DNA of 34,509 nucleotides from assembly GCA_937127285.1 (NCBI GenBank), contig CAKZLV010000041.1, positions 1 to 34,509 of the forward strand, given 5' to 3'. The notes under the pieces were generated by a model. That model had not been told where the DNA came from. It did not search any database and saw only the letters and a program-made list of their open reading frames with translations. The position numbers were made by a program, and so were the translations under genes. Positions within the stretch are counted from its first letter, which is position 1; each line of letters opens with the position of its first letter. Positions 1-33,116 of the stretch are shown here, in pieces. The DNA comes from an uncultured Bacteroidota bacterium. GTDB taxonomy: Bacteria; Bacteroidota; Rhodothermia; Rhodothermales; Salinibacteraceae.

Positions 1-55
1 CTACTGGTCGGTTCCCCTACTGGTCGGTTCCCCTACTGGTCGGTTCCCCTACTGG
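1..55. repeat. Tandem repeat, 16-bp unit CTACTGGTCGGTTCCC, 3 full copies plus a partial copy (CTACTGG) that is the end of the adjacent CDS; truncated by the window edge
   Basis: Direct reading of the first 55 bases; the partial last copy overlaps the stop codon (cta, minus strand) at 49-51. Confidence 0.97.
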
Positions 56-1266
56 AAGTCGAAGAGCAGGGAGAACCGGAGCGTGTTTGCGAGCGGGTTG
101 TTTTCCTCGAGCGTGTAGATGTAGGAGATATCGACGCCGATGATGTTGTACCGCAGGCCGGCGCCGAAATTCAGGAACTCCCGGTTTCCATTGTTCGGGT
201 CTTCGTAGAAATACCCCGTTCGCAGTGCCAGGAGATCGTTGTACCAGTACTCCAGCCCGAGACCGATGGTGAACTGCTCTACGAGGCTAAGCTCGGCTGC
301 CTCGTCTCCTCCGCGCTGCAAGCCACGGGCTGTCCCCCACGAGTTAAAGATGGCCTCGTAGAAGGGATCCGGGTCGGTAATCACGTCGCACTCCTCCCCC
401 TCCTCCAGGTCGGCCGGATTGCAGTTTGGGTCCACGCGACGGTCGACGCTCACGAGTTCCTTGTTGAAGTCGTTCGCAAACGTCAGGGAGTTGTACTCGT
501 CGAAATCGAACGTAAACGCGTATCCGAGGCGAAGATTGGTGGGAAGGGGCTGTTGGTCTTCGTCGTAGGTCATGAAGCCCCCCATGTTTGCCAGGTTCAC
601 CCCGGTGGAGAACGTCGTCTGCGTGCCTCCAAGGGAGAAAGGCGCCGTTCGGTACAGGGCCGACAGATCGAACGCAACCGTCGCCGCGGTGCCGTCGTCA
701 ATCTGCAGTTCCGACGTCGGATCCGTCAGCTTCGAATAGATGACGCGGACGCTCGTCCCGAGCCCCAGGCGCTCCGAGACCCGCCGTCCGTAGGAAACGC
801 CAACGGCCAGTTCGTAGGAGCGGGACTCGCCCAGAAGCTCGCCGTTGCCGTCTCGCCGCTCGATTTCTCCGAGGTTGAGGAAGGTGACGTTGCCGCCAAA
901 TGTGCCGACACCGTCGACGTGGTAGGTGCCGACCAGGTACTCATAGAAGAGGCCGGCGTCGAATTCCGGCAGCCAGTTCGCGTGGGTGATTCCAAGCTGC
1001 GTGTTCTCTTGAAAGGCCAGGCCAGACGGGTTCCAAAACATCGCGTTCGCATTGTCCGCCACGGCCACTCCGGCATTCCCCATTCCGGCAGACCGGCTGT
1101 CGGGTTCGATGCGGAGAAAGAGGGCGGTCGCTTCCCCGAGCTGGGCGCGAGCCGTCTGCGTCATCCCCAGTGAGAGGACAACCGCAGCCACGGCGATCAG
1201 CAGAAAGCGGTACAGACGCACTGGAAGGGTGGAAGACAAAGTCATGGGGAGTCGCTGTTGGTGCAA
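49..1266 (-). CDS. PorV/PorQ-family outer-membrane beta-barrel-like protein (UPF0164-like)
   Basis: 405 aa; N-terminal signal peptide; 'SRSAGMGNAGVAVADNANAMFWNPSGLAF' motif typical of PorV/PorQ-type proteins; ends in aromatic ...LLFDFQ. Confidence 0.8.
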   Translation of the reverse strand: MHQQRLPMTLSSTLPVRLYRFLLIAVAAVVLSLGMTQTARAQLGEATALFLRIEPDSRSAGMGNAGVAVADNANAMFWNPSGLAFQENTQLGITHANWLPEFDAGLFYEYLVGTYHVDGVGTFGGNVTFLNLGEIERRDGNGELLGESRSYELAVGVSYGRRVSERLGLGTSVRVIYSKLTDPTSELQIDDGTAATVAFDLSALYRTAPFSLGGTQTTFSTGVNLANMGGFMTYDEDQQPLPTNLRLGYAFTFDFDEYNSLTFANDFNKELVSVDRRVDPNCNPADLEEGEECDVITDPDPFYEAIFNSWGTARGLQRGGDEAAELSLVEQFTIGLGLEYWYNDLLALRTGYFYEDPNNGNREFLNFGAGLRYNIIGVDISYIYTLEENNPLANTLRFSLLFDFQ

Positions 1267-1484
1267 TCGGGATTGAATACAGGGCGGACGTGGTCGAGCG
1301 CGCAGCGGTCGATCATGCAGCGGTCCGTCGTCGTCCTCCCCACCGCCGGAACGGGGTCTGTCCCTCCGGAACGGATCCGTTCGTTATCGCGGCAGTGGAG
1401 GGAGAAGCGGTAGCGGTTTTTCCCGATAGGCAACCGTGGGGACTGACGAAAAACAATGTGAGGAGAGACATCCTCTTGATTCCA

Positions 1485-1512
1485 ATCGTATCCTAGCCCG
1501 TGCCGGTGACAA
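1485..1512 (-). promoter_or_regulatory. Possible sigma70-like promoter upstream of the PorV-like gene (TTGTCA-N16-TACGAT on minus strand)
   Basis: Plus-strand ATCGTA at 1485-1490 and TGACAA at 1507-1512, 16-bp spacer, about 220 bp upstream of the CDS. Confidence 0.4.
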
Positions 1513-1629
1513 TGTAAATGGTTGGCACGAAAGAAACGGAGAAACCGCCCACAGACGTTTGGACAACTTCCAGACCGAAGCGGCGGAGCAGACGCGGCAG
1601 AAAGCCGACGCGACAGGAGACGAGCAGAT

Positions 1630-1881
1630 TCATGCGTCCTTGCCGATTGCCCTCTTCAGGCGGTTGAGGCGCTCGAGCGAATCAGCCATCTGCTCTGCTG
1701 CTTCCTTGATGTCTTCGGCGGAGGACGCAAACTGATCGTCGAGGCCCTCCTGCCGGCTTACCTCCAGCAGAAACTGAGCGTTGCCGGAGATAATCGATAG
1801 CGGGTTGTTCAAATCGTGATACACGGAAGAAATCGTCTCCTGTGCATCCTCTGCCGAGTCCAGGGGGGAATTGTTGCTCAT
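1630..1881 (-). CDS. Stand-alone histidine kinase DHp (HisKA-like) domain protein, no ATPase domain
   Basis: 83 aa with H-box 'YHDLNNPLSIISGNAQFL'; the ORF ends without N/G boxes. Confidence 0.7.
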   Translation of the reverse strand: MSNNSPLDSAEDAQETISSVYHDLNNPLSIISGNAQFLLEVSRQEGLDDQFASSAEDIKEAAEQMADSLERLNRLKRAIGKDA

Positions 1882-2005
1882 TTCATCGGTGGGTTCGTTC
1901 GTGATAGTGACACCTCCATGAAGGGCGCCCGTTCCGGGACGAGATCGTCAAACGACGCCGGCGACCGGTCCGCCGGGGAACACTGTCTGCCGCTGCGGAG
2001 GCATA

Positions 2006-2110
2006 GCCGCTGAAGGCACCGTTGTTGAGGGTGCCCTTGTTGAGGGTGCCCTTGTTGAGGGTGCCCTTGTTGAGGGTGCCCTTGTTGAATGCACCGTTGC
2101 TGAAGGCACA
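2006..2110. repeat. Tandem repeat, 15-bp unit (c/g)TTGTTGAGGGTGCC, 7 units with degenerate edges
   Basis: Units at 2006, 2021, 2036, 2051, 2066, 2081 and 2096; the central three are identical. Confidence 0.95.
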
Positions 2111-2194
2111 GCCGCGGCGAGGCTCACGAGCCCGTTCCGTCGCCGCTCGTTTGCCGAGCGCTCCTCGATCCGGGGCTCGGAGATCACGGGGCGG

Positions 2195-3055
2195 CTACAG
2201 CGCGCTCAGGGGCCGGGGCCGGATCGGTTCAATTCCGTGCTCCGTTTCTTCCAGCGAAGCCACAGCAACGTCGGGATCGTGTTCGAAAAAGAGGTCCCAG
2301 CCGCTGCGGGCCGCCTCGTGAAGAAATTCCGCCTTCTCTTCGATGGTGCGCAGCGGCTCAACGTCGTACGCCATCGTCCACGCCGCAGGCAGGTGGTGCG
2401 TCGTAGGAAGAAGATCTCCAACGTACACGAGGGTAGACGCCTCTCCCGCGATTTTCACCATCTGCTGGGCTCGCGTGTGCCCGTGAACCGGGAGGACCTC
2501 GACGGCATCGACGATCTCGGTCCGTCCGTCCACAAGTTGCAGCTGCCCGCTCTCCGCCAGAGGCTGGATGTTGCGCGCAAGGAAGGACCCGGCTTCCTTC
2601 GGATTGGGGTCTGTCGCCCACTCCCAGTGGTCGCGCTGAACGTAGAAGGTCGCGTTCTCGAACGCAACCTCGTGATCGTCATCCCCAACCCGACGGGTGC
2701 TGCCTCCGCAGTGATCAAAGTGCAGGTGGGTCAAAATGACATCGGTGATCTCGTCGGGCGCAATCCCGATGTCGTTGAGAGACGTTGCCAAGCGGGTCTC
2801 GGATCGGTCGACGGCGTAGATGTCAGCATATTTCGTGCCGTCGAACGTATCCCCGATCCCGGTGTCGATCAGGATGGTTCGGTCTGCCCCGTTCAGGAGC
2901 AGGCAGCGCATGTGGAGGGAAATTCGGTTTTGATCGTCGGGGGCGATGCGCTGCTCCCACAGCGGCTTGGGGACGATGCCGAACATGGCGCCGCCGTCAA
3001 GACCGAAGGTGCCGGTGTCCACGGTATGGAGGCGATACGGGCCGAGGTGTGTCAT
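2195..3055 (-). CDS. MBL-fold metallo-hydrolase
   Basis: 286 aa; 'ILTHLHFDHCGG' HxHxDH motif and 'VHGHTRAQQ' downstream histidine. Confidence 0.9.
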   Translation of the reverse strand: MTHLGPYRLHTVDTGTFGLDGGAMFGIVPKPLWEQRIAPDDQNRISLHMRCLLLNGADRTILIDTGIGDTFDGTKYADIYAVDRSETRLATSLNDIGIAPDEITDVILTHLHFDHCGGSTRRVGDDDHEVAFENATFYVQRDHWEWATDPNPKEAGSFLARNIQPLAESGQLQLVDGRTEIVDAVEVLPVHGHTRAQQMVKIAGEASTLVYVGDLLPTTHHLPAAWTMAYDVEPLRTIEEKAEFLHEAARSGWDLFFEHDPDVAVASLEETEHGIEPIRPRPLSAL

Positions 3056-3189
3056 GCAGCGGGTTGAACGTCGGGGGGAACCGTGGGAGAAGGTTTCTCA
3101 CTGTCCCCATCATCCCAAATCCGACGACCAATGTCCATCCGGCCAGGCCCCGTGCGGCGAGATGCTTCTTCGGCGAACCGCTCTTCCGG

Positions 3190-3840
3190 CTACACCTCCT
3201 CCGGCGGGAAGTCCTTGAAATGGCCGTTGGACCGGATACGTCGCCGGAGGTCTTCGGTTTGCTCCACCCGTGGGATCAGAGATTCGAAGTGGTCGATCAG
3301 GTACTCGATCCGCTCGCTTTCCGTGGAGAGGCGCAGAACCTCTTGTTTCTGCGACGGATCCAGTCCCGCGTTCTGAGCCAGCACGAACGACAGGTGGGCG
3401 ACGTCGTCGTAGAGGTCGGGTCGGACGGTGCGTCCGGCCAGTTCGAGGAGCTTCATGTGCTGGGTGATGACCCGCTCCTTGAGGTCGAGGTCCAGGTCTC
3501 CTTCTGCTTCGCGCAGGAGGTCGACGTCGGCCGTGTAGTAACTTTTGTCGTCGTGGACTTCCACAATGCGAAAGCGCTCCTCCCCCTCCACAACAATGTC
3601 CATGCGCCCGTCGTCGTACTCCGTCACGACGCGCTCGATGCGGGCCGTCGTTCCCACGTCCGCAATCCGGCCGTCTTCGGCGAGGACGATACCGAAGGCG
3701 ACCTCGTGATCGAGGCAGTAGTGGGTCAGGTCTTTGTAGCGCTCCTCAAAGATGTGCAGAGGAAGCTGCTCGTCCGGGTACAAGACAAGCCCCAGCGGAA
3801 AGAGGGGAAGTGAGTCGATCGACGCCATAAGCCGTTCCAT
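3190..3840 (-). CDS. LON peptidase substrate-binding (N-terminal) domain protein
   Basis: 216 aa; 'LPLFPLGLVLYPDEQLPLHIFEERYKDL' is the hallmark of the Lon substrate-binding domain; no AAA or protease domain. Confidence 0.9.
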   Translation of the reverse strand: MERLMASIDSLPLFPLGLVLYPDEQLPLHIFEERYKDLTHYCLDHEVAFGIVLAEDGRIADVGTTARIERVVTEYDDGRMDIVVEGEERFRIVEVHDDKSYYTADVDLLREAEGDLDLDLKERVITQHMKLLELAGRTVRPDLYDDVAHLSFVLAQNAGLDPSQKQEVLRLSTESERIEYLIDHFESLIPRVEQTEDLRRRIRSNGHFKDFPPEEV

Positions 3841-3888
3841 TTACCTGCATAACGCGGGAAATCGAACGACCCGGTGGAAACCGGTGTT

Positions 3889-5778
3889 TCACTTCTTTTC
3901 GCCAGAGAACAGGGATGTCACAGCCGTCTCCCGTTTGCCAGGGGGAGAGGCCCTTTCGTCGGGGGGCGGCGAGCCGGAGGCGGGCGGGGGCGGATCTCGA
4001 AGGAGAACGAGAGCGATGCTGCCCGTGACGGCAACGCCCAGCAGAACGGCGGCCGTTGCCCACTGCAGCAAGAGCAGAGCGCCCACCCCGAACATGGTGC
4101 CGTACAGGACGGGGACGGCAGCGGCCACCCGCAGGAGGCTTCGCTTCAGGGAGATGGCCGGGGGGATTCCCGTGCGCCGCCGCTGCCGCGCCCATCCCGG
4201 TCCCCCGGGGCGGGCGAGGCGATAGAAGCGATCCAGCGTTTCGGGACGCTCGGGCGGGGTGAGGAGCATGGTGGTGATCCAGGCAACGGCCGTGGCGCCG
4301 GTGATGAACAGGAGGCGGAGCCCGAAGTCGTCGATCGTCACCACGTCCACCACGGTGGTGAGCAGGCCGAGGACGAAGCCGGCGATCATGGCTGCGAGTT
4401 CTGCCCAGGCGTTGATCCGCCACCAGAACCAGCGGAGGATGAGCACGACGCCCGGCCCGGTTCCGATGGCCAGGACGAGTCGAAAGACCGTCGCGACGCT
4501 GTCGGCAAAGAAGGCGGCGGTCGCGCCGAGCGCGGTGATGAGGACGGACGCCGCCCGGCCGACGGCCACCAGTTCGTCGTCGTCGGCCTGGGGGTGGAGA
4601 AATCGCTTGTACAGGTCGTTCGTCAGGTACGACGCCCCCCAGTTGATCTGCGTCGACACGGTGCTCATGAAGGCTGCCACGAGCGACGCAACGACCACGC
4701 CCAGCAGGCCGGTGGGAAGAAAGTCGACCATAAGCCGGGGGTAGCCCATCTCCGGATCCTCCATGTCCGGGTAGAGCACCAGTGCGGCGAGGGCCACGAG
4801 CACCCACGGCCAGGTTCGCACCACGTAGTGCATGATGTTGAAGAACCAGGCGGCCTTTTCGGCGCTGGCCTCGTCCCGCGACGCCGCCAGCCGCTGGATG
4901 AACTCCCCTCCCCCGTCGGAGCGCCGGAACGTCCACCACTGGATGCCGACGTAGGCGAAGAAGGTGGTCGCGCTGATTCCGGCGAAGGAACTCCATCCCA
5001 CCCCCAGCCACGTGTCGGCGCTCCAGGTGATGGGGATGAAGGCGAGGACGTCGAACTCCGTAAAGCGCTGCGACTTCTCGACGAGCCCGCTCAACCCCCC
5101 GACGTCCGGGCTCTGGATGGCGAAGACCGCAACGAGGACGGCGCCGAAGAGAGCAAGGAAGAACTGAAAAAAGTCGGTGGCCACCACGCCCCACAGTCCG
5201 GACAGTCCGGCGTAGAGAAGAACGAGGAGCGACACGCCGATCACGATCAAGAGTTTGGGATCGACGCCCAGCACGGTCCCTCCGGCGGTGGAGGCACCGG
5301 CGACGCCGAGGCGTTCCCAGATGCCCAGCGCGCCGATCACCTTCACGGCGGCCAGCATGATGTAGCCGATCCCGATGCAGTTGATCGGGACGGCGAAGAG
5401 AAAGGCCTTCGTTGCGCGCAGGATGGCAGCCGGTCGTCCCCCGTACCGCTTTTCGGTCAGTTCGGCGTCGGTGACGATTTCGCTTCGGCGCCACAGACGG
5501 GCGAACAGGTAGATGAGGGCAACGTGCCCGAAGCCGAACGCCCACCATTCCCAGTTGCCGGCAATCCCGCGGCTGCCGACGACGCCGGCCACGTAGAGCG
5601 GGGTGTCGATGGAGAAGGTCGTGGCCGCCATCGACGTGCCGGCGAGCCACCAGGGCAGCGACCGGCCGGAGACGAAGAAGTCCTCCAGAGACTGGGACGC
5701 CCGCCGGGACAGATACGCCCCCAGCCCGAGCGCGGCGGCCATGTACAGACCGACGATCAGCCAGTCGACGAGGGCCAT
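3889..5778 (-). CDS. Sodium:solute symporter family protein (SSS)
   Basis: 629 aa, many TM helices; 'VDWLIVGLYMAAALGLGAYLSRRASQSLEDFFVSGRSLPWWLAGTSMAATTFSIDTP' is typical of SSS N-termini. Confidence 0.92.
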   Translation of the reverse strand: MALVDWLIVGLYMAAALGLGAYLSRRASQSLEDFFVSGRSLPWWLAGTSMAATTFSIDTPLYVAGVVGSRGIAGNWEWWAFGFGHVALIYLFARLWRRSEIVTDAELTEKRYGGRPAAILRATKAFLFAVPINCIGIGYIMLAAVKVIGALGIWERLGVAGASTAGGTVLGVDPKLLIVIGVSLLVLLYAGLSGLWGVVATDFFQFFLALFGAVLVAVFAIQSPDVGGLSGLVEKSQRFTEFDVLAFIPITWSADTWLGVGWSSFAGISATTFFAYVGIQWWTFRRSDGGGEFIQRLAASRDEASAEKAAWFFNIMHYVVRTWPWVLVALAALVLYPDMEDPEMGYPRLMVDFLPTGLLGVVVASLVAAFMSTVSTQINWGASYLTNDLYKRFLHPQADDDELVAVGRAASVLITALGATAAFFADSVATVFRLVLAIGTGPGVVLILRWFWWRINAWAELAAMIAGFVLGLLTTVVDVVTIDDFGLRLLFITGATAVAWITTMLLTPPERPETLDRFYRLARPGGPGWARQRRRTGIPPAISLKRSLLRVAAAVPVLYGTMFGVGALLLLQWATAAVLLGVAVTGSIALVLLRDPPPPASGSPPPDERASPPGKRETAVTSLFSGEKK

Positions 5779-5868
5779 GAAGGGAGAGCCGGTGAGGAGC
5801 GGCGGTGCCCGCCGCCGAAGGAACGAAACCAGGGCATGGATGCGGGCCGGGCGGCCCCGGTCGAGCCG

Positions 5869-6372
5869 CTACGGCGTCGGGACGGGCGTTCGCTCTCCGC
5901 GGGCTACGGGTTGCGAGCGCCCGGCTAGCCGTTCCGGAGCAAAGGCGTCGCGAGGGCTCGCTGCCGCCGCCGAGCCGGCATGCTTCCGCATGAAGTAGTC
6001 GAGGTAGGCGGCCGCTACGTGCGCCTCCTCCTCTTCAGCGCACAGGTAATACTCCTGCTTGTAGGGCTTGTCCCACTGGCTGGGAAAGAAGAGTTCGCGG
6101 CACGGGTCGGCACCGATTTGGAGCGCCCGGGCGGCTTTCTTCCAGAGCGTGCCTCCGGTGTGAAATCCTCCTTCTTCGAGGAGATCCCGCTCGTCGTGGC
6201 TCCCGTTCTCCAGGAGGACGTGCCCGGCAATGCAGGCCCGAAACCCGTCCGGCACGGCCCCTTCTCGCAGAACGCGCGTCGCGTTGCGGGCAAAGGCCCA
6301 CTGCGCGGCGCAGAACCGGTCGGGGTACAGAACGATTTTTTTCCGGACGGACTCAAGAAGTTGGACGTTCAT
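5869..6372 (-). CDS. Conserved hypothetical protein
   Basis: Start chosen at MNVQLLESVRKKIV (6372) within the 184-aa ORF; compact, normal composition (RFCAAQWAFARNA...CIAGHVLLENG); family not recognised with certainty. Confidence 0.6.
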   Translation of the reverse strand: MNVQLLESVRKKIVLYPDRFCAAQWAFARNATRVLREGAVPDGFRACIAGHVLLENGSHDERDLLEEGGFHTGGTLWKKAARALQIGADPCRELFFPSQWDKPYKQEYYLCAEEEEAHVAAAYLDYFMRKHAGSAAAASPRDAFAPERLAGRSQPVARGERTPVPTP

Positions 6373-6654
6373 CGCGTACAACGGTGCGGTTCGAGTAGGG
6401 GTACGAGGTGGCGGCCGTCCCATCGACCCGTCCGTTCACGGTCCGCTCCGGTACGTACAGCTGTCGCGGAGGGGCGGGAAGCAGCAGCCCGGTCGGGGGA
6501 CAAGGGCACAGCTGAGGCGGGGGTCGAAGGCACGGCCGGGAGGCGCGTCATCCGCAGGGCCCGGACTGCGGGGCGGCGTCGGCCGCCCCGGCGAGACCGA
6601 CGAACGGGGTGTCCGGGGGCCGGGAGTGCGCGGTCGATTCGGGAAGGGTGCGGT

Positions 6655-7647: not shown

Positions 7648-7929
7648 GGTGCAGATGCTGCGGATCAATCGGTGAGGTGTCGATGGCTTGCGAGGGCAGC
7701 CCGTGCCGGTGCCGCAAGGCCGCCGGTGGGTGAGCAAGCATATGATTGCACCCACGTCCGCCGAAGATGTTCGGCCCGCCCGCGTCTGTGCGCGGACGGT
7801 ACCAGACAGACGACAAGAGACGCCCGGGATGCCGGAGCAAGCGGCACCGGTTTCGTTTCACGACGGCGGTTCAGGCTGCGGGCGCTCGTCCGCAGCCGAC
7901 GGTCTTCTCCTTCGATGAGTGTGCGGGGG

Positions 7930-8008
7930 CTAACCGCGGTGCGGTACCAACCGGTGCGGTACCAACCGGTGCGGGTACCAACCGGTGCGGGTACCAGCCG
8001 CGGTGCGG
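7930..8008. repeat. Tandem repeat, 15/16-bp unit GTACCAACCGGTGCG, about 5 units
   Basis: Units at 7930 (degenerate), 7945, 7960, 7975 and 7991 (degenerate), between nadA and the LolD-like gene. Confidence 0.93.
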
Positions 8009-8033
8009 GTCGAGGAGCGACCGGCTCACCCGG

Positions 8034-8063
8034 GCCTTCGCCGATCCAGCCTTCGCCGATCAA
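8034..8063. repeat. 15-bp tandem duplication GCCTTCGCCGATC(CA/AA), second copy spanning the stop codon of the LolD-like CDS
   Basis: 8034-8048 gccttcgccgatcca; 8049-8063 gccttcgccgatcaa; stop codon tca at 8060-8062. Confidence 0.95.
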
Positions 8064-8788: not shown

Positions 8789-8824
8789 GGTCGATACCGG
8801 ATCGATGCCGGGTCAGTGTCCAGT

Positions 8825-8933
8825 CAGTCTCGGGTCAGTCTCGGGTCGGTGCCGAGTCGGTGCCGGGAATCGTCGTCGGGAATCCGTCGTCGGGAATCGT
8901 CGTCGGGAATCGTCGTCGGGAATCGTTCAGTCG
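8825..8933. repeat. Two abutting tandem arrays: 11-bp unit (CAGTCTCGGGT) then 13-bp unit (GAATCGTCGTCGG)
   Basis: 11-bp units at 8825, 8836, 8847, 8858; 13/14-bp units at 8867, 8880, 8894, 8907; the array runs into the stop codon (8927-8929) of the next CDS. Confidence 0.93.
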
Positions 8934-10306: not shown

Positions 10307-10490
10307 GGGTCACCGGCGGGCATCTTGAAGAAAGCACTCGGTCGGCCGGAGAGCAGCCGGCCCGACACCGGCCCGGCACCGGGTCGCCGCCGCGTCCGCC
10401 GGCCCGGCCGTCGCCGGGGAGCGGACTCGGAGGCCGGGTCGATCAACAACAGACCGGCCGGAGCGACCGCTCTGCGCCTGAGACGCACGG

Positions 10491-11216: not shown

Positions 11217-11421
11217 AGACGATTCGTTCAGTCGACAAGGAAGGAAGAGGGTGGGTCGGCGATCCGCAGCAGCAGCCTACCGCTACCGCCCGATGCATGT
11301 TCGCACCGTGCCTGTGCACCGTGCCAATCGGGATCAATCGGGGGTTCGTTGGTGGACCGTTGGACCCGTGCGTGCCGGGGGAACGCACACCGGGGCGCTG
11401 CATGCCGGGTCCGCGGGAATC

Positions 11422-11460
11422 GGAGCCACAGGGGCCGGAGCTACAGGGGCCGGAGCCGCG
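11422..11460. repeat. Tandem repeat, 15-bp unit GGAGC(C/T)ACAGGGGCC
   Basis: Units at 11422 and 11437, partial at 11452. Confidence 0.85.
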
Positions 11461-11496
11461 TCGAACAGGGCGGGAAACGCAGCCAGACATCTGTCA

Positions 11497-11547
11497 CTAC
11501 CCGAGCCCCGTCGCTACCCGAGCCCCATCGCTGCCCGAGCCCCGCGG
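11497..11547. repeat. Tandem repeat, 17-bp unit CTACCCGAGCCCCGTCG, 3 units
   Basis: Units at 11497, 11514 and 11531. Confidence 0.93.
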
Positions 11548-14790: not shown

Positions 14791-14838
14791 CCGGTTGCTC
14801 CTGACCGGTTGCTCCCGACCGGTTGCTCCCGACCGGTC
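14791..14838. repeat. Tandem repeat, 14-bp unit CCGGTTGCTCCCGA, 3 full units plus partial
   Basis: Units at 14791, 14805 and 14819, partial at 14833. Confidence 0.95.
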
Positions 14839-18990: not shown

Positions 18991-19120
18991 GGCCGATGAA
19001 CGGGGTCGATGGATGGGTCGGCGATAGACTGTCGAAGAGGCGGCCGTCGCGCCGGGCGGGCTGGAACGAACGGCAGAGGGCCCTCCAGCGGTGAAGACTC
19101 CCTGCGGCGAAGACCCCAGC

Positions 19121-19172
19121 GGCGGCTCTTCAACGGCGGGGCTCTTCAACGGCGGCGGCCCTTCAGCGGCGG
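19121..19172. repeat. Degenerate tandem repeat (about 15-17 bp; GCGGGGCTCTTCAACG)
   Basis: ggcggctcttcaacg / gcggggctcttcaacg / gcggcggcccttcagcg in series. Confidence 0.8.
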
Positions 19173-19186
19173 CCTCCGTACGGGTC

Positions 19187-19699: not shown

Positions 19700-19725
19700 C
19701 CTATCGGATGTTCCTATCGGATGTT
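19700..19725. repeat. Exact 13-bp tandem duplication CCTATCGGATGTT covering the last codons and stop of rpsR
   Basis: 19700-19712 and 19713-19725 identical; rpsR stop (cta) at 19714-19716. Confidence 0.97.
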
Positions 19726-19926: not shown

Positions 19927-20062
19927 GGGTCAGTCGTTGTGTCGGGTCGTTCGAAGTCCGTTCGATGCGGGAAGGCAACCGGTCACGGTTTCGGGCGACT
20001 CGCGGCACGGGGGGTCGCTTCCGGTCCGCCGCCCTGCAGAGACGGGCGATACGGCAGCAGTT

Positions 20063-20094
20063 CCCTCGTCGCGAGAATCCCTCGTCGCGAGAAG
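20063..20094. repeat. 16-bp tandem duplication CCCTCGTCGCGAGAA(T/G)
   Basis: 20063-20078 and 20079-20094, just downstream of rpsF. Confidence 0.95.
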
Positions 20095-20761: not shown

Positions 20762-20780
20762 GGCTACAGATTGGCTCAGG

Positions 20781-20795
<15 letters not shown>
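20762..20795. repeat. 17-bp tandem duplication GGCTACAGATTGGC(TCA/CAG), second copy spanning the prfA stop codon
   Basis: 20762-20778 and 20779-20795 share the first 14 bases; prfA stop (cta) at 20781-20783. Confidence 0.95.
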
Positions 20796-22189: not shown

Positions 22190-22192
22190 CGG

Positions 22193-22250
22193 GTGCGCTC
22201 CCCTGTTCGGGCGCGCCTCCCCTGTTGAGGCCCACTCTCCTGTTCGGGCC
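22193..22250. repeat. Degenerate tandem repeat, about 17-19 bp unit (cCTCCCCTGTTCGGG...)
   Basis: gcgctcccctgttcggg / cgcgcctcccctgttgagg / cccactctcctgttcgggcc between the small ORF and the recQ stop. Confidence 0.8.
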
Positions 22251-22253
22251 GGG

Positions 22254-24245: not shown

Positions 24246-24381
24246 GGGCCCGGAGACCGGTTGGTCGAGGACAAGGAGACGAAGAGACAAAAGACACGGA
24301 GTGAACGACGGGCAGAAGGAGGAGGTTCGCGGGTTGAATCGGAGCCGACCACGGAGGTCTCCTCTGAAAGGGGCGCGGTCG

Positions 24382-24435
24382 GTGGGGTCGGCGCGAACGG
24401 TGGGGTCGGCGCGAACGGTGGAGTCGGCGCGAACG
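24382..24435. repeat. Tandem repeat, 18-bp unit GTGG(G/A)GTCGGCGCGAACG, 3 units
   Basis: Units at 24382, 24400 and 24418. Confidence 0.95.
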
Positions 24436-24665
24436 GTCGTCTGCCCGTTTCTGGCCCCTGTTCGAATCACGCGCCAGGGGAGATCGGTCCTGCGTCGGCG
24501 GGACCGTTGGACCAGGCTCCCTCCGGCCCCGACTCCTCCACGGCTGACCTTTGACCGCCCGAAACGGTTCTCTCTGGAATCTTTACGCCGGTCCCTTTCA
24601 TCCCGCATCCCCGGCCTTGAACGTACACCTGATGCACGTCCGCTTCCGCTTTCTCCCCACCCGAC

Positions 24666-25703: not shown

Positions 25704-25724
25704 CGCTCCCGGTGGCGCGGTCCG

Positions 25725-26642
25725 CTATCCCTCCCCCTGTCTCCGCTCCCAGACGACGATGGCGACGCCGGCCATGACGACGGCCATCCCCGCGATGGCG
25801 GGGGCAGGAGGCACCTCGCCGAAGAGAAGGTAGGCGAGGATCGACGCCCCGACCGGTTCGAAGAGAGCCAGCATGCCGACGATGGCCGCCGGCAGGTACT
25901 GAACGGCATAGTTGAAGGAGCCGTGGCCGGCGAGCTGCGGCCCGATGGCGAGGCCGGCGCAGAGCGCATAGAACGTCCAGGAATAGGAAAACAGGGGGAC
26001 GCCCTGCCACCAGGCGGCGGCAACGGCCGTGGCGGCGGCCGCGGTGTACAGGGGGGCGACGTAGGCAAGCCACGACACCTTCTGGCGGACGACCCGCCCG
26101 ATGAGGAGATAGACGCTGACGAGAACCGCCGCCCCGAGGGCGAGGCTGTTGCCGAAGAGAGCACCTCGACCCAGGCGGACCCGCCCCGCATCCCCCCACC
26201 CGATGAGCGCCGCCCCGGCCACGGCAACCCCGATGGCGGCAACGGTTCGCGCCGAGAGGCGGTCTCCAATCAGCAGGTATCCCAGAACCGCCAGAAAGAT
26301 GGGGCTCGTGGTGACGAGGACCGACGCGCTGGCGACCGTCGTGTGGTACAGAGATTCGATCCAGGCAATGAAGTGCAGCCCGAGGAAGACCCCCGCCGCC
26401 CCGATCAGAAGGACATCCCGGCCGTGAAACTGCCGGATCTCCTCTCGGGAGCGCAGGGCGGCGAGCGGGACGACGGCTCCGGCCGCGATCACCGTTCGCC
26501 AGACGGCAATCGCAAGGCCCGGGGCGTCGTCGGCCCAGCGAACGAAGATCGGGGCGAACGCGAAGCTGAGGACGCCCACGGCAAGAACGACCGCGATCCG
26601 AACCGACCGGTTCGTCGCAACGCCGGATTCTCCTCCACGCAT
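25725..26642 (-). CDS. EamA/DMT-family transporter
   Basis: 305 aa; about 10 TM, duplicated EamA architecture ('FAPIFVRWADDAPGLAIAVWRTVIAAG', 'LFEPVGASILAYLLFGEVPP'). Confidence 0.9.
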   Translation of the reverse strand: MRGGESGVATNRSVRIAVVLAVGVLSFAFAPIFVRWADDAPGLAIAVWRTVIAAGAVVPLAALRSREEIRQFHGRDVLLIGAAGVFLGLHFIAWIESLYHTTVASASVLVTTSPIFLAVLGYLLIGDRLSARTVAAIGVAVAGAALIGWGDAGRVRLGRGALFGNSLALGAAVLVSVYLLIGRVVRQKVSWLAYVAPLYTAAAATAVAAAWWQGVPLFSYSWTFYALCAGLAIGPQLAGHGSFNYAVQYLPAAIVGMLALFEPVGASILAYLLFGEVPPAPAIAGMAVVMAGVAIVVWERRQGEG

Positions 26643-26717
26643 CGATCAGCGTCCGTTGGGAAAGGAAGGCGGAGACCGAACACCGGGGCTCCGGGGCCGG
26701 GGCGAGGGGCGGGCCTG

Positions 26718-27143
26718 TTACCGGAGACGGTCCATGGACTTGACCAGTTCGATGTCGTGGTCAATTCCCCGCCGGGCGAGGAGAAACAAAAGGTAGGCGA
26801 GGATCGGCAGGCCGAGCATACCTGCTTTCGCCCAGTCAAATCCGTCGGCGGCGCGGACGGCCAGCTCTCCGGTAAGATAGAGCCCGCCGTAGAGAACGGC
26901 CGCCACGGCAACCGTCAGGAGTTGCGCCCCGACGACGACCGTACGTTGCGTCTGGCGGTTCTCGTAAAGGAAGATCGCGGCCACGGCGGTGACGCCCGTC
27001 ACCGCCGAGAGCCCGATCACGGCCGGCAGATACCACCCGTGCGATGCCGCGGCCGTGCTCGACCAGAGCGAGTCAAAGAAGAAGAGGCCGGTGAGGGCGA
27101 CGGCTCCGAGGAACAGGTAGACCGTTTGGATACGCTGAATCAT
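26718..27143 (-). CDS. DUF4293-like integral membrane protein
   Basis: Start chosen at MIQRIQTVYLFLGAVALTGLFFFDSLW (27143); four TM; N-terminus typical of the Bacteroidota DUF4293 family. Confidence 0.75.
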   Translation of the reverse strand: MIQRIQTVYLFLGAVALTGLFFFDSLWSSTAAASHGWYLPAVIGLSAVTGVTAVAAIFLYENRQTQRTVVVGAQLLTVAVAAVLYGGLYLTGELAVRAADGFDWAKAGMLGLPILAYLLFLLARRGIDHDIELVKSMDRLR

Positions 27144-27223
27144 GGACAATCGACAATCTTGGTGCAGGGAACGGGTCGGGAGAAGGCGTCCTTCAAAGCG
27201 TGGCGCGGGCGTTTCGTCCACGG

Positions 27224-27298
27224 CCGTTCGCTGAACGGCTGCTTGCTGAACGGCTGCTCTCGCTACGCAGCAGCTCGCTACGCAGCGGCTCGTTAAGC
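27224..27298. repeat. Two abutting tandem arrays (about 15-16-bp units TGCTGAACGGCTGCT and TCGCTACGCAGC(A/G)GC)
   Basis: cgctgaacggctgct/tgctgaacggctgct then tcgctacgcagcagc/tcgctacgcagcggc/tcgttaagcggcc. Confidence 0.88.
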
Positions 27299-27320
27299 GG
27301 CCTTCGCGTGGACGGCGCAC

Positions 27321-27354
27321 AAAAAAAGCCCTGCCGAGGAAGCAGAGCTTTTTT
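27321..27354 (-). terminator. Rho-independent terminator (bidirectional-looking), downstream of the exbB-exbD operon
   Basis: AAAAAAAGCcCTGC-cgaggaa-GCAGaGCTTTTTT: stem with A-tract and T-tract on either side, about 24 bp past the exbD stop. Confidence 0.85.
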
Positions 27355-27377
27355 GCCGCAAGAATACGTAGGGGCCG

Positions 27378-27836
27378 TTAGTTGGCACCGGCTTCCCGCG
27401 AGGACGAATAGTTGATGCGGAGCGTACCCGCATCCCGGAGTTCCTGTTGCACCTCATTGACAGTATTCATCTCAGACTCGCGATCTACCTTCATCGACAC
27501 GATCAGCTTCGGCTGCTCCTGCAGCTTCCGGTACATGATCTGCCGAATCGCATTCCGGTTTTCGATGAGGGCGTCGTCGATCTGAATGGCCGTGTCCCCC
27601 TCGTTCTCCCCCGACTTCAGGGGGCCGATGAAAAGCTTCGAGATCAGACGCTTCTGGTCGATCTTCGTGAGGGCTTCCGCCTCCGGGAGCTGCGTTCGCA
27701 CCTTCAGGTCCGTCTCCCGCAGAACGGTCGAGACCATAAAGAAGATGAGCAGCATGAAAACGATGTCGGGGAGCGAAGCCGTCGTGAATCCAGGTTCGGA
27801 ATTGGAGCTTCGCTTCTGAAAGCGTTGGGAAGGCAT
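27378..27836 (-). CDS. exbD: ExbD/TolR family biopolymer transport protein (paralogue 2)
   Basis: 152 aa; N-terminal TM with conserved Asp 'SLPDIVFMLLIFFMVSTVL'. Confidence 0.9.
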   Translation of the reverse strand: MPSQRFQKRSSNSEPGFTTASLPDIVFMLLIFFMVSTVLRETDLKVRTQLPEAEALTKIDQKRLISKLFIGPLKSGENEGDTAIQIDDALIENRNAIRQIMYRKLQEQPKLIVSMKVDRESEMNTVNEVQQELRDAGTLRINYSSSREAGAN

Positions 27837-27889
27837 ACGGTTGAGAACTTGTCAAGATCGGTGCGGGACGGGCGGATCGCAGGACAGGG

Positions 27890-28492
27890 CTACTCGCCGA
27901 GGTCCGGCTCGGCGATCGAGATGTTGGCCCCGAAGTTGTCGCGGATGACGTTGTCATCTTCCGGCCCCAGCGTCGACCGGTAGGCTTGATAATCCGGGAA
28001 CGTCTTCTGGAGGATCTGCTCGCCGTTGGGCCCGGGAAGGGTGCCGCTGCGGGCAATGCTGTTCCAGATCTCGCGGTAGGCCATCCACACCTCGTCCAGG
28101 GTATCGATGTAGATCCGGTACGGCGTCTGCGCATCGGTCTTGATCGAGATGACCGCATCGCTGGGGCTGACCGCCAGGTCGGGGTCCTCGCCGAAGTTCA
28201 GGACGTGCTCTTTCACCCGGTCGCGGATCTGGTTCATCGAGGCGCGCTCGCCTTCGATGAGCACATCTCCCTGCGAGTTGACCAGAACCTTGAACATATT
28301 CCGGTCCTTTACGGGGGGAGGATCTTGATTCTCCAGCTTCGGAGGCAGGGTCATTCCGATGCCAGTGTCGACGTTGATCGTCGTCGTCACCAGGAAGAAG
28401 ATGAGGAGCAGAAACGCGATGTCCGCCATCGAGGCGGTCGGGATCTCGACGTCCTCGCGGTCTTCGCGTCGCTTGTCGAGAAGATCGGCCAT
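27890..28492 (-). CDS. exbD: ExbD/TolR family biopolymer transport protein (paralogue 1)
   Basis: Start chosen at MADLLDKRREDREDVEIPTASMADIAFLLLIFFLVTTTI (28492); conserved TM Asp. Confidence 0.9.
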   Translation of the reverse strand: MADLLDKRREDREDVEIPTASMADIAFLLLIFFLVTTTINVDTGIGMTLPPKLENQDPPPVKDRNMFKVLVNSQGDVLIEGERASMNQIRDRVKEHVLNFGEDPDLAVSPSDAVISIKTDAQTPYRIYIDTLDEVWMAYREIWNSIARSGTLPGPNGEQILQKTFPDYQAYRSTLGPEDDNVIRDNFGANISIAEPDLGE

Positions 28493-28602
28493 GAGAGTGC
28501 GGCGTCGGTGAAACGAGTGCGGGAACAGGCGGGGGCGACCCGGAGGCCCGGGTGCGCGGGGAACGGAGTCGACCCGGTGAGAAACGCGCATCGGCCCGAA
28601 AA

Positions 28603-28636
28603 GATGCCGGGTCGCGCCGGATGCCGGGTCGGATCG
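28603..28636. repeat. 17-bp tandem duplication GATGCCGGGTCG(CGCCG/GATCG)
   Basis: 28603-28619 and 28620-28636, between exbD paralogue 1 and the small TM gene. Confidence 0.85.
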
Positions 28637-28697
28637 GACGTCGACCCGTCCGTGCGTCGCCCCGGACGCGCCGCCCGAGGCGGCTTCCGGAAGGGCT

Positions 28698-28976
28698 CTA
28701 CCAGATGAGGTTTGTGATCCCCGTATACACGAGGCCCAGGAGCGCCAGCCCGAAGAGGATGATCGTGGTCATGATCCCGGCCTGCACCCAGGTTTCCATG
28801 GTGAAGCCGAGGACCAGCAGGATGACGGCCGGTGAAGAGATCGAGGCGATCGTCAGCGGCTCGCTCTTTCCGTAGGTCAGGTTTCGAAGACCAAAGAGTG
28901 CTACTCCGAGGAGGCTCACCCCCGCAAGGATGATGGCTGCCCAGATGGCGATGTAAAGAACCATGTTGCCGTCCAT
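28698..28976 (-). CDS. Small (92 aa) integral membrane protein between exbB and exbD
   Basis: MDGNMVLYIAIWAAIILAGVSLLGVALFGLRNLTYGKSEPLTIASISSPAVILLVLGFTMETWVQAGIMTTIILFGLALLGLVYTGITNLIW; about 3 TM; same strand and spacing as its neighbours. Confidence 0.8.
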   Translation of the reverse strand: MDGNMVLYIAIWAAIILAGVSLLGVALFGLRNLTYGKSEPLTIASISSPAVILLVLGFTMETWVQAGIMTTIILFGLALLGLVYTGITNLIW

Positions 28977-29144
28977 GAGTCGTGTTCGTTGGAGTCGAAG
29001 GTGGGTGGAGATCGGGCCGGTGCACAATCGGGGCCGGCCGGTGCGCCGGTGACGGCAAGCAGAGGAGGGGTCCCCTCTGCCTGCGGCCACCGGGGCGGGC
29101 CGGAACCCGGCACAGGCCGCGATCCGCGCGGCGACGGCGTCGCC

Positions 29145-29888
29145 TTACTCTTCTTCCGTGGCGACGGCTTCCGGCACCGACTTCTCGCCCGTGACCGACT
29201 CTCCCTGCCGCAGAAGCACGAGCGAGTCGATGAGTTCGATCGATGCATCCTCCATCTCCGCCACGATGCGGTCGATTTTCGACACCGCGTAGTTGTAGAA
29301 GAACTGCAGGATGACGGCAACGATCAGGCCGAACGCCGTGGTGAGCAGAGCGATCTTAATTCCTCCGGCCACGAGGCGCGGGGAGATGTCGCCGGCGTTT
29401 TCGATGGCGTCGAACGCCTCGATCATCCCGATCACCGTTCCGAGGAAGCCAAGCATGGGCGCGACGCTGATGAAGAGCGAAAGCCAGACGAGGCCGCGCT
29501 CCAGGAAGCTCATTTCAATCGATCCGTACGAGACGACGGCCTTCTCGACGGCGTCGATGCCCTCGTCGGCCCGCAAGAGGCCCGCCTGGAAGACGGATGC
29601 AACCGGACCGCGCGTGCTGGCGCACTCTTCTTCGGCAGCCGGGATGCCGCCCTCGTCGAGCGCCTGCTTCACGCGCTGCAGAAAGTCGCGGGTGTTGATG
29701 TCGGCACGGTTCAGCGAGATGATGCGCTCGAAGGCGATGGCCAGACCGATGATTAGGCAGATGAGCACCGGCCACATCCACGCCCCGCCCTCGTTGAAAC
29801 GTTCGACGAGAGCATTGATGGCCCCTCCACCGCCCTGTTGGGGCAGCATCATCAGGAGCTCGACCGTCAGTTTATTCAGAATCACCAT
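29145..29888 (-). CDS. exbB: MotA/TolQ/ExbB proton channel family protein
   Basis: 247 aa; 'LERGLVWLSLFISVAPMLGFLGTVIGMIEAFDAI...ISPRLVAGGIKIALLTTAFGLIVAVILQFFYNY'. Confidence 0.93.
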   Translation of the reverse strand: MVILNKLTVELLMMLPQQGGGGAINALVERFNEGGAWMWPVLICLIIGLAIAFERIISLNRADINTRDFLQRVKQALDEGGIPAAEEECASTRGPVASVFQAGLLRADEGIDAVEKAVVSYGSIEMSFLERGLVWLSLFISVAPMLGFLGTVIGMIEAFDAIENAGDISPRLVAGGIKIALLTTAFGLIVAVILQFFYNYAVSKIDRIVAEMEDASIELIDSLVLLRQGESVTGEKSVPEAVATEEE

Positions 29889-30327
29889 GGGTGGCTAGTT
29901 CCTCAGTGGGGTAGGTCAGTGATACAGCGTAAGTCGGTTTCGGTGAGAGCCCACTCGGGGCAGCGAGGCGCACCAGAAGCGGCCCAGGCGGTACCCGTCG
30001 GCACGAACAGGTGCGGCCGGCGGAGGCGGGAGGCAACCCGCCCCGGCCCGAGCCGCGGCTTTGTGGAGGAGTCGCCTCCCGGGGAGTCGAAGGATTCCCC
30101 AGCCCCCGAAGGAGAGGTCCTCCTCGTTCTCCATCAGCGACGCAGTCGCCCGATCGAGATGCGAGAAGGCCCCGGCGTACAATCGAAAAGCAGTTCGTTC
30201 GCGCGTCTGTTCGCGGTTCGAGTGGGGTGTAACGCCGCAGCGCAGCGACGAAGCGTCCGTCCGTGGGTAGACGACGGCGGATCCGAAGCGGATGCATGAG
30301 CACCCTCATCTTGATCCACATTCAGAA

Positions 30328-30356
30328 AGTATAGGCAGCGCTGTGCACCTTGTCAA
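30328..30356 (-). promoter_or_regulatory. Near-consensus sigma70 promoter TTGACA-N17-TATACT (minus strand), reading toward exbB
   Basis: Plus-strand AGTATA (30328-30333), 17-bp spacer, TGTCAA (30351-30356); lies in the 741-bp gap upstream of exbB. Confidence 0.75.
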
Positions 30357-30443
30357 AATCTTTGCAACGGTGTCACATCCTTGCCTTTCATCGGCAGCAG
30401 ACCGGGGAATCGGACCGGAAATCGGTGCAGCCGCCGTCGGCGT

Positions 30444-30471
30444 GGGGCAGATCGGCGGGGGCAGATCGGCG
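30444..30471. repeat. Exact 14-bp tandem duplication GGGGCAGATCGGCG
   Basis: 30444-30457 and 30458-30471. Confidence 0.93.
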
Positions 30472-30629
30472 CGGCGAGAGATCAGGCGCGGGGGAAGATC
30501 GCCGCCGGGGTCGCGGCCCGCGAGCGTCCTCGAAGCTGGACCGCCTCCGGCAAACGGGGCCGTCCGTGTCTCGTTTGGGTCTCGATGGTGTGCGTGTCGG
30601 CGTCGCCTCTGCCTCGACCATAGACCGGC

Positions 30630-32417
30630 CTACTCGCTGTATGTATCGGTGGCCGGTTGGGGTGGGGAGACAACCGGATAGCGACTGGCCAGCATTCGGG
30701 CCTCGCTCCATGCGCTTCGCGCTTTCGCAACGATCGGATCGACGCTGTTTCGAACTCGGTGCCACACGGGCGTTCCAAACAGCCGCCGGCCGACGTAGCT
30801 CTTCATGACGGTTTCAATGTTGCGACGCGACCGGGCGACCTCTTCGGAGGTCACCGGCGGCCGGTCCGCGAACCGCTCGGCCGCCTGCGAGTCTGCCGGT
30901 GAGCCGGGGTCCGGCCCGTAAACGCGGGATTCGGGGCGACCGGCGGCGGCGCGGGCGGCGTCGGGGATCGGCATACCGTGCCGTTTCGCGTACCGCAGCA
31001 GAGACGGGTAGGCGTCTTCCGGCATCGCGAAGGCATCGACGAACGACGACGGGCGCCCCGCCCAGGCCTCCCGCAGCGACGCCACCCGTACGTCCACCCA
31101 CCGACGCACAAAGTCGTGCACGATGCCGTGTCCCTCCAGCAGCCGTCGGAGCCGGTGCTCGGCCGTGTCGGCCGGGACCAGCACGTCCGGTAGAATGCCG
31201 CCCCCTCCCACGACCACGCGGCCGGCATCGGTGCGGTGGCGCAGGGAATCGGGCGTCTTGCGGAGCAGGTCGCCACGATCTGTGAGAGAGTCTCCGGCGC
31301 TCAGGTCGTGCTTGTGTTCGTGGTAGGACTGTCCGTCGTCTCCATACGGCGTCTGGATGAGGCGCCCGGACGGGGTGTAGAACCGCGCGATCGTGACGCG
31401 AAGGCCGCTGCCGTCGCCGAGCTGAAACTGGCGCTGGACCAGCCCCTTCCCGAAGGTTCGCCGGCCGACGATGAGGGCGCGGTCGTGATCTTGCAGGGCA
31501 CCGGCCACAATTTCGCTGGCAGAAGCCGTTCGCCCGTTGACGAGCACCGTCAACGGCCCCTCTTCAAACACGCCGCCCGAGGTGGCCCGCCGCGTCTCGC
31601 TGTACTCCGCATGCCGGCTCTGGGCGGAGACGATGACTTGGTCGTCGGTCAAAAACTCATCGGCCACCTTCTCGGCCATCGACATGTAGCCGCCGGCGTT
31701 GCCGCGCAGGTCCAGAACCAGGCGCTGCATGCCGTCCTCCTTCAGCCGAACGAGCGCCTCGTGCACTTCGCGGTAGGTGGTACGAGCAAACCGGTTCAGC
31801 CGCAGGTATCCCGTCTCCTCGTCCATCATGTACGCCGCGTCCACCGTTTCGATGGGAACGTCGTCCCGCGTGATGCGGACGCGCAGCGAGTCGGGGCCGC
31901 CGGGACGCTGCAGGACGACCTCCACGCGGCTTCCTTCGGGCCCTTTCAGGCGCTCCTGCACCCGGTCGTGCGACCACCCCACGGCCGACCGCCCGTTGAC
32001 GGCGACGATGCGGTCGCCGGGCCGAACGCCGGCCTTGCTGCTCGGGCCGTTGGGAACGACGGTGACGACCGCGATGGTATCTTGATCGGCCGGGCCGTCG
32101 ACAAACTCGTACGAGACCCCGATTCCTTGAAAGGAAGCCCGAAACGATTCTTCGATGGCCTCCATCCGATCGGACGGGATGTAGGCGGAGTGGGGGTCGA
32201 GTTCATCCACGAAGCCGCGGACGGCACTGGCAGCGACGCGCTCCGAGTCGATCGGCTCCACATACTCTGACCGGATCATCTCGTACGCATTCTGAAACGC
32301 CTGGAAGGCCTCGGGCGGCGGTTGCGGAGACCGGGAGGCGGCCAGCCCGAGCCCGAGAGCGACGCCGATGACGATGAGTGCCAGACCGCTGAGGGTAGTA
32401 CGGGTGGAGTGCTTCAT
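30630..32417 (-). CDS. S41 family C-terminal processing peptidase with PDZ domain
   Basis: 595 aa; PDZ 'IVAVNGRSAVGWSHDRVQERLKGPEGSRVEV'; catalytic Ser 'NGRTASASEIVAGALQDHDRA' and Lys 'TFGKGLVQ'. Confidence 0.94.
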   Translation of the reverse strand: MKHSTRTTLSGLALIVIGVALGLGLAASRSPQPPPEAFQAFQNAYEMIRSEYVEPIDSERVAASAVRGFVDELDPHSAYIPSDRMEAIEESFRASFQGIGVSYEFVDGPADQDTIAVVTVVPNGPSSKAGVRPGDRIVAVNGRSAVGWSHDRVQERLKGPEGSRVEVVLQRPGGPDSLRVRITRDDVPIETVDAAYMMDEETGYLRLNRFARTTYREVHEALVRLKEDGMQRLVLDLRGNAGGYMSMAEKVADEFLTDDQVIVSAQSRHAEYSETRRATSGGVFEEGPLTVLVNGRTASASEIVAGALQDHDRALIVGRRTFGKGLVQRQFQLGDGSGLRVTIARFYTPSGRLIQTPYGDDGQSYHEHKHDLSAGDSLTDRGDLLRKTPDSLRHRTDAGRVVVGGGGILPDVLVPADTAEHRLRRLLEGHGIVHDFVRRWVDVRVASLREAWAGRPSSFVDAFAMPEDAYPSLLRYAKRHGMPIPDAARAAAGRPESRVYGPDPGSPADSQAAERFADRPPVTSEEVARSRRNIETVMKSYVGRRLFGTPVWHRVRNSVDPIVAKARSAWSEARMLASRYPVVSPPQPATDTYSE

Positions 32418-32486
32418 GGACCGCCGGTTGTGAGGGCACCGATTGACGCGTGCAGTCGTACCGAAGTTGCATTCCAGATCCTGTGC

Positions 32487-32542
32487 GTCGGATCCTACAA
32501 GTCGGATCTTACAGGCCAGATCTTACAGGCCGGATCCTACGG
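32487..32542. repeat. Tandem repeat, 14-bp unit GYCGGATCYTACAR, 4 units
   Basis: Units at 32487, 32501, 32515 and 32529. Confidence 0.95.
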
Positions 32543-33116
32543 GCTGCATACATGGGCCGAATCCGGTGCGCGGCCCGCGCGGACAGGACGCGCCCTCCCG
32601 ATGGCACCGGGGCCGCATCAACGGCACGGCACCCGCCCAGGAGATTCCGAGAAGTTCGGAGAGATTCCGAGAACCCAACGGACCGCAGATTCAGGCCGCA
32701 CAGTCTGGATGTGCACCAGGTTCAACAGGTATACCCAGCGGCCTCCAGACAGGATCCAACCCGGCGCCCCCCGGCGCGCACCCGGCCTCTTCCATTCCCG
32801 CCGTGTCGCTCCTACCTTGTTCATCCTCGACAACCGGTCTCCGCGGTCGCTTTTCTTTCTCCCTTGTTCGTCTTCGATCCATTGTTCGTCGTCAATCAAT
32901 CGTCCGAAGGAGACCGCAACGCATCGCGCCGGTTGATGTCTACGGCGTGCGGCGGCTGCCATCGGCCGACCGCGCCCCCCTCCCTCGGCTGCCTCTTCCT
33001 CGCACAGCCGGCGGCCCGGCAGGCCCTCCACGCCGCGAGCCCCGGCGCCCTGCGGGCGCAGGCAGTCGCCGCACGAAGCCCGTTCACGCTCTGTTCGACC
33101 ACCGTTTGCTCCCCGC

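Follow-up and report, generated by a model that had tools for sequence, protein, structure and literature searches.

Borg elements, giant extrachromosomal elements of archaea, carry tandem repeats, and the study describing them counted arrays of at least three units and 50 nt, which were mostly perfect and A-rich and lay in genes in about half of the cases (PMC9879509). These arrays are often flanked by partial repeats and are carried on linear archaeal elements (PMC9879509). Another group comprises intergenic heptamers, known as TAACTGA sets in Beggiatoaceae, Cyanobacteria, and some Bacteroidetes (PMC4679880) and as the G-rich heptamers of Xanthomonas and Nostoc (PMC4692102). Repeats arising de novo have been described for beta-lactamase, i.e., for one gene under drug selection, and were tied to direct repeats or to same-strand complementary sequences (PMC4169377). 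The birth of bacterial tandem repeats, unlike their growth, is poorly known. Here we describe short tandem arrays occupying many of the spacers between genes in a 34,509-nt stretch of DNA from an uncultured bacterium of the Salinibacteraceae, the whole of which is hereafter called the window. These arrays are probably scars of a mutation process, composed of duplication, growth, and selection, and not functional elements.

Array excess, unit size, and the birth of duplications

The window is the entire contig C41 of a genome labeled G000, a draft of 370 contigs and 3.85 Mb that is 88% complete. Tandem Repeats Finder (TRF), at a score of at least 50, called 19 arrays in the window, 18 of them in spacers (Table 1). 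The initial annotation of this DNA had listed 18 places with tandem arrays in the gaps between genes and had proposed to compare them with shuffled spacers, and both the list and the excess stood: 15 of the places are TRF arrays, and the remaining three (8034, 20762, and 28603), which fall below the threshold and were read directly from the sequence, are also real, with about two copies or fewer. The list was nevertheless incomplete, the arrays at 19085–19124 and 27259–27292 and the run of four at 8791–8926 having been overlooked. With dinucleotide-preserving shuffles as the null model, the window spacers (7.9 kb, cut at gene ends) hold 17 arrays, whereas 200 shuffles average 0.145 and never exceed 2. 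In a 457-kb sample of G000, consisting of about 94 kb of spacer and 363 kb of coding DNA, the spacers carry 188–197 arrays compared to 2.0–3.3 in shuffles. Array density is thus about 200 per 100 kb of spacer, with roughly 10% of the spacer sequence within arrays, and extrapolation to 3.85 Mb suggests about 1,500 arrays in the whole genome. Genes were called with a home-made program, whose stops are certain and whose starts are less so.

Units in G000 measure 13–17 bp and are mostly present in 2–4 copies, each joined head to tail to the next without the unique spacers of clustered regularly interspaced short palindromic repeats (CRISPR); in many arrays the copies have diverged. The tight size bound claimed from the window is not a threshold effect, because counts of exact spacer duplications made without any TRF threshold show the same bound: 2, 4, 2, 11, 31, 14, 24, 3, and 2 duplications for units of 10, 11, 12, 13, 14, 15, 16, 17, and 18 bp, respectively, and at most one per length at 19 bp and above. 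Shuffles gave no exact duplication from 12 bp up, and a lesser excess is seen at 7–8 bp. Units of 14 and 16 bp at first seemed favored over those of 15 bp, but this difference vanished after arrays with a 7/8-bp sub-period had been removed.

Based on such sub-periods, the 197 spacer arrays of G000 can be grouped into class A (no internal sub-period, units mostly 13–18 bp; 152 arrays) and class B (a sub-period of 6–9 bp, mostly 7–8 bp; 45 arrays, where shuffled units would give 11.8). All 18 spacer arrays of the window belong to class A, with no 6–9 bp sub-period at 60% identity, and the earlier statement that the units are unrelated and form no single dispersed family is true of the window; the unit at position 1, for example, is found at up to one mismatch only in the window and in its overlap with contig C116. 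Genome-wide, a second and dispersed heptamer class exists that is absent from the window. Class B includes the degenerate heptamer family TACC-A-, i.e., TACC[C/G/A]A[A/G], whose 20-base pattern has 285 matches in the genome and none for a reversed control (examples are G000:C10:4057-4223, C32:11196-11264, and C54:56437-56505).

Births of the same size class can be seen directly in two relatives, G007 and G012, with genomes of 2–3 contigs that are 95.4% identical over 280 kb aligned. Fresh duplications occur here at sites that are single-copy in the other genome: exact gains of 13 bp in G007 and of 14, 15, 16, 16, and 18 bp in G012, the direction of change in this comparison of two genomes resting on the copies being mutually identical. 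At G012 L111:16076 and 16432 the single-copy alleles of G007 are directly visible in the alignment. Among the G012 gains, the 15-bp unit went from one to three copies and one 16-bp unit from one to four, and the 18-bp gain lies within a gene, in frame. Residual junction homology is 0–1 bp in all six. The spacers of G005 and G014 are too diverged to show ancestral alleles. As a separate observation, a spacer of G012 within C1:3300001-3585205 contains a poly-C tract of approximately 83 bases and is about 76 bases longer than its counterpart in G007.

Family-wide, 35 clean two-copy spacer duplications show residual homology of 0 bp (11), 1 bp (11), 2 bp (2), or at least 3 bp (11), where chance would give 53, 29, 12, and 6%, respectively. 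Since 24 of the 35 junctions have 0–2 bp, most births do not require homology; a minority appear to be primed by homology or to contain a worn third copy.

Coding DNA, in which the initial annotation had noticed no comparable arrays, is not free of them: one array of the window (26982–27025) lies in a gene, and the 363 kb of coding DNA carry 61 arrays versus 7.3 in shuffles. Its remark that most unit lengths are not multiples of three does apply to spacers, in which only 44 of 163 arrays with units of 12–22 bp are divisible by three, compared to 49 of 51 in coding DNA (Fisher p = 8e-20). Expressed per 100 kb, frame-breaking units amount to 125 in spacers and 0.55 in coding DNA, and in-frame units to 46 and 13.5. 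Given this depletion of frame-breaking units and the in-frame bias in genes, one process appears to act in genes and spacers alike, with selection filtering the outcome. In another genome, G031, the window pattern is reversed, with 34 coding arrays per 100 kb and few in spacers.

Position within spacers points in the same direction. Density per 100 kb is highest in convergent spacers (329), intermediate in tandem ones (221), and lowest in divergent ones (147). In tandem spacers, 13 arrays end 10–60 bp upstream of a start codon, compared to about 29 by random placement, and several arrays cross or begin at stop codons (e.g., those at 1, 19700, and 20762). Such a distribution is expected from tolerance, with few arrays at promoters and ribosome-binding sites and more beyond gene ends. 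Moreover, shuffling the units does not make arrays fold any worse (mean z +0.2), and this lack of a hairpin excess speaks against both terminator-like hairpins and slippage driven by hairpins.

Distribution in the family and detail of the window

The family sample comprised 27 genomes, 14 of them of high quality, and for most relatives the spacer samples were small. G000 is the sole member of its genus, sister to a genus of 13 species in a four-protein tree. Arrays per 100 kb of spacer reach 198 in G000, 220 in G005 (in only 3.6 kb of spacer), 85 in G010, and 55 in G021, and 0–48 in the others; in G010 and G021 most arrays consist of heptamers or octamers whose sequence differs from TACC-A-. 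As a background, 80 distant bacterial loci, obtained by a contig scan with a prfA-type product, were pooled and yielded 29 arrays per 100 kb of spacer, 13 of 27 with units of 14–17 bp. Hence arrays of this size class occur generally at a low background level, and G000 stands about seven times above it. Because G005 is placed in a separate part of the family tree from G000, bursts arose independently at least twice, the second of them (G005) being based on a small sample.

Arrays coincide with breaks in the assembly. Of the 76 contig ends read, 19 have an array at most 60 bp away, versus 5.5% of random places and 18% of random spacer places. The array at window positions 1–55 recurs at C116:5195-5249, and the 55-bp match shared by C41 and C116 looks like the k-mer overlap of an assembler using a 55-mer. 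C116, whose end we infer to lie at this match, is probably the left neighbor of the window, with the assembly broken inside the array. Arrays therefore break the assembly rather than arise from it, and because they do so at contig ends, the true copy numbers may be above those listed. Strain haplotypes, suggested by the nearly equal size of contigs with neighboring numbers, were dropped as a candidate, as blastn among 41 of the genome's own sequences gave no matches longer than 300 bp.

The gene content of the window is bacterial, including by Pfam PorV, a LON domain, a sodium symporter, NadA, a sigma-54 activator, GAPDH, PGK, S6, and L9; the PrfA-, RecQ-, and CtpA-type names used for further genes are ones we presume from reading only. 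At 8791–8926 and at 27220–27292 arrays of unrelated units adjoin, as if one site favors further, different duplications alongside.

Table 1. Tandem arrays and duplications of the window, in order of position, with their units, gene context, and mode of detection.
Position	Unit	Size and copies	Context	Detection
1–55	CTACTGGTCGGTTCCC	16-bp array, ×3.4	covers stop of porV-like gene (49–1221, −)	TRF; cut by contig end
2022–2088	TTGTTGAGGGTGCCC	15-bp array, ×4.5	class A	TRF
7935–8010	CGGTGCGGGTACCAAC	15/16-bp array, 31-bp double unit	upstream of nadA	TRF
8034–8063	GCCTTCGCCGATCCA/GCCTTCGCCGATCAA	15-bp duplication, ×2, one mismatch	reaches ABC-ATPase stop at 8060	read; below TRF score threshold
8791–8926	TCGATACCGGA, CGGGTCAGTCT, GTCGGTGCCGA, CGGGAATCGTCGT ×4.8	four adjoining arrays, units differ	between ABC-ATPase and sigma-54 activator genes (gene calls, Pfam)	TRF
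11421–11457	CGGAGCCACAGGGGC	15-bp array, ×2.5		TRF
11493–11544	GTCGCTACCCGAGCCCC	17-bp array, ×3.1		TRF
14791–14837	CCGGTTGCTCCCGA	14-bp array, ×3.4	downstream of pgk (PGK by Pfam)	TRF
19085–19173	CCAGCGGCGAAGACTC; GCGGCGGCTCTTCAACG ×3.3	two neighboring arrays, 16 bp; 17 bp	past rplI stop (L9, Pfam)	TRF
19700–19725	CCTATCGGATGTT	13-bp exact duplication, ×2; no junction homology	across rpsR-like stop	TRF
20062–20093	TCCCTCGTCGCGAGAA	16-bp exact duplication, ×2; no junction homology	past rpsF stop (S6, Pfam)	TRF
20762–20792	GGCTACAGATTGGCTCA/GGCTACAGATTGGC	17-bp duplication, ×1.8	copied end and stop codon of prfA-type release-factor gene	read; under two copies for TRF
22190–22249	CGGGCGCGCTCCCCTGTT	18-bp array, ×3.3	past stop of recQ-type gene (named by reading)	TRF
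24372–24437	GGCGCGAACGGTGGGGTC	18-bp array, ×3.7		TRF
26982–27025		18-bp array, ×2.4, in-frame unit	inside called gene (26718–27143, −); only coding array of window	TRF
27220–27292	ACGGCCGCTCGCTGA, CTCGCTACGCAGCAG	two abutting 15-bp arrays, unrelated units		TRF
28603–28636	GATGCCGGGTCGCGCCG/GATGCCGGGTCG	17-bp partial duplication		read from sequence
30437–30510	GGGGAAGATCGGCGCG	14/16-bp array		TRF
32489–32544	CGGATCCTACAGGC	14-bp array, ×4, copies diverged	upstream of ctpA-like gene (named by reading)	TRF

A probable mutational origin and its alternatives

The initial annotation had left two options, a process that repeatedly generates short duplications and selection for spaced repeats in spacers. 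The former is favored and the latter disfavored because the units are unrelated, genes hold in-frame arrays, arrays are thinned upstream of starts, no hairpin excess exists, and relatives have acquired fresh duplications. In the course of events that we propose, an arbitrary stretch of 13–17 bp would first be copied head to tail, with junction homology usually of no more than 1–2 bp, as seen in the relatives. Out-of-register replication would then add copies up to about five, after which the units would diverge; differences in copy number are observed between genomes, and slippage would be their cause. Coding and spacer DNA would be struck equally, and purifying selection would remove the frame-breaking copies, most of the in-frame copies, and those near starts, as the statistics above indicate. 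Lastly, the rate or the retention would have been raised in G000 and in one separate lineage, as the pattern of densities suggests.

As for the enzymology of the first step, strand displacement, at a nick or where Okazaki fragments meet, might leave a 5′ flap of about 15 nt that escapes processing and is ligated rather than trimmed. This suggestion is a tentative one, and it fits because it needs neither homology nor Ku and sets the unit to the flap length. The products of flaps and of slippage are limited by PolA, which processes flaps, and by single-strand exonucleases, RecJ among them. It is also conceivable, though doubtful, that a homology-independent duplication of about 15 bp occurs bacteria-wide as the main source of new tandem repeats, and that a suppressor, for which RecJ and MutS1 are candidates, was lost in some lineages; if true, spacers would fill with arrays in lineages such as G000.

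With regard to the repair genes, MutL is present in G000. RecJ was not found in G000 (a draft 88% complete) or G014 and was found in G005, and full-length MutS1 was not found in G000, G005, or G001, which are 88, 62, and 84% complete, respectively. These absences are a lead only and prove nothing, since the drafts are incomplete and G001 is array-poor yet without MutS1. The PolA flap-nuclease domain was not found in G013, and G005 gave only a weak partial match below the cut-off. In addition, MutS1 of G011 (C57:47563-50225) and RecJ of G021 (C7:49027-50596) each occupy two adjacent open frames in a frameshift-like manner. The absences of RecJ and MutS1 and the split frames are possibly gaps or sequencing errors of incomplete drafts.

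Several points weigh against a homology-free mutational burst or its proposed flap step. The PolA flap-nuclease domain is present in G000; about a third of the clean two-copy duplications (11/35) have at least 3 bp of homology where 6% is expected; at individual sites, the differences between G007 and G012 may reflect loss of copies in one genome; and reduced selection, not a raised rate, could be contributing in G000.

The alternative that fares best is classical slippage, or microhomology-mediated joining, at pre-existing short direct repeats, which would explain births as well as growth. The same excess of junctions with at least 3 bp of homology speaks for it, as does the finding that de novo duplications in a beta-lactamase gene were partly bordered by direct repeats (PMC4169377). 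However, two thirds of the junctions have 0–2 bp, all six recent gains of G007 and G012 have 0–1 bp, and slippage alone leaves the gap at 9–12 bp in the unit spectrum unexplained. Slippage, one of the two processes that the initial annotation had named, is thus disfavored for most births, whose junctions lack homology, and we consider it unlikely as the explanation of the whole.

Selected regulatory or structural elements of spacers, such as terminators or spaced sites binding RNA or protein, would account for the concentration of arrays in spacers and for the several arrays located just past stop codons. This is improbable, given that the window units are unrelated between sites, the hairpin excess is absent, in-frame arrays occur in genes too, arrays are thinned immediately before starts, the region richest in regulation, and the sampled stretches of most relatives are array-poor. 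Equally improbable is the other process named initially, the repair of staggered double-strand breaks, in which Ku and LigD would join the filled-in ends and thereby duplicate the overhang. Such joining would yield length-bounded duplications without homology, and small tandem duplications at eukaryotic break ends are known (PMC8355091). However, a search of the 27 family genomes, 14 of them of high quality, found no Ku, while it did detect the B. subtilis control, and this absence argues against Ku-type end joining.

Target-site duplications left after excision by a mobile element or a Cas1-like integrase would likewise be length-bounded direct repeats of unrelated sequence. They are very improbable here, as the units are spread over 13–17 bp and not of one size, and the fresh cases include sites at which three or four perfect copies directly adjoin and the sister genome has one copy. 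Finally, an assembly artefact, to which a 370-contig draft with 19 of 76 contig ends near an array might point, can practically be dismissed, since the copies have diverged, the genic arrays obey the frame, and fresh arrays exist in the 2–3-contig genomes of G007 and G012.

Comparison with known repeat systems

New here are the confinement of units to a narrow size class, junctions that mostly lack homology and are seen together with sister alleles, and bursts specific to particular lineages. G000 and its relatives form a natural set that makes the mechanism of birth testable, as the single-copy allele persists in sister species. In practical terms, short-read assemblies of array-rich genomes break at arrays and may underestimate them.

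Bacterial variable-number tandem repeats (VNTRs), or minisatellites, resemble these arrays in that the copy number varies between close relatives. VNTR typing relies on a handful of loci per genome, and G000 differs by its approximately 200 arrays per 100 kb of spacer. The de novo repeats of beta-lactamase share head-to-tail birth at single-copy sequence and reversibility by slippage (PMC4169377), whereas the G000 duplications are genome-wide and mostly without direct-repeat borders, direct repeats alone having been compared. Intergenic heptamers are similar in being intergenic direct repeats of low copy number and patchy distribution. They reuse one unit at many sites, unlike the window arrays, each of which has its own unit; accordingly, it is class B of G000, with its TACC-A- heptamers, that resembles the known heptamers, and the window arrays do not.

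The closest precedent is the tandem repeats of Borgs. G000 differs from them in that its arrays lie on a bacterial chromosome and mostly in spacers, with units of 13–17 bp, copies that are often diverged and not perfect, and junctions mostly without homology; the carrier is neither a Borg nor a methane-oxidising archaeon. Flanking partial repeats of the Borg type would correspond to a residual repeat of at least 3 bp, which 11 of the 35 clean two-copy duplications have and the remainder lack. On the other hand, both systems feature many unrelated, locus-specific, and recent arrays, each site having a unique unit, that break contigs, and in both the genic units are divisible by three and the spacer units mostly are not. 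Furthermore, Borg arrays are nearly absent from the host genomes (PMC9879509), a specificity for particular genomes in which G000 is alike.

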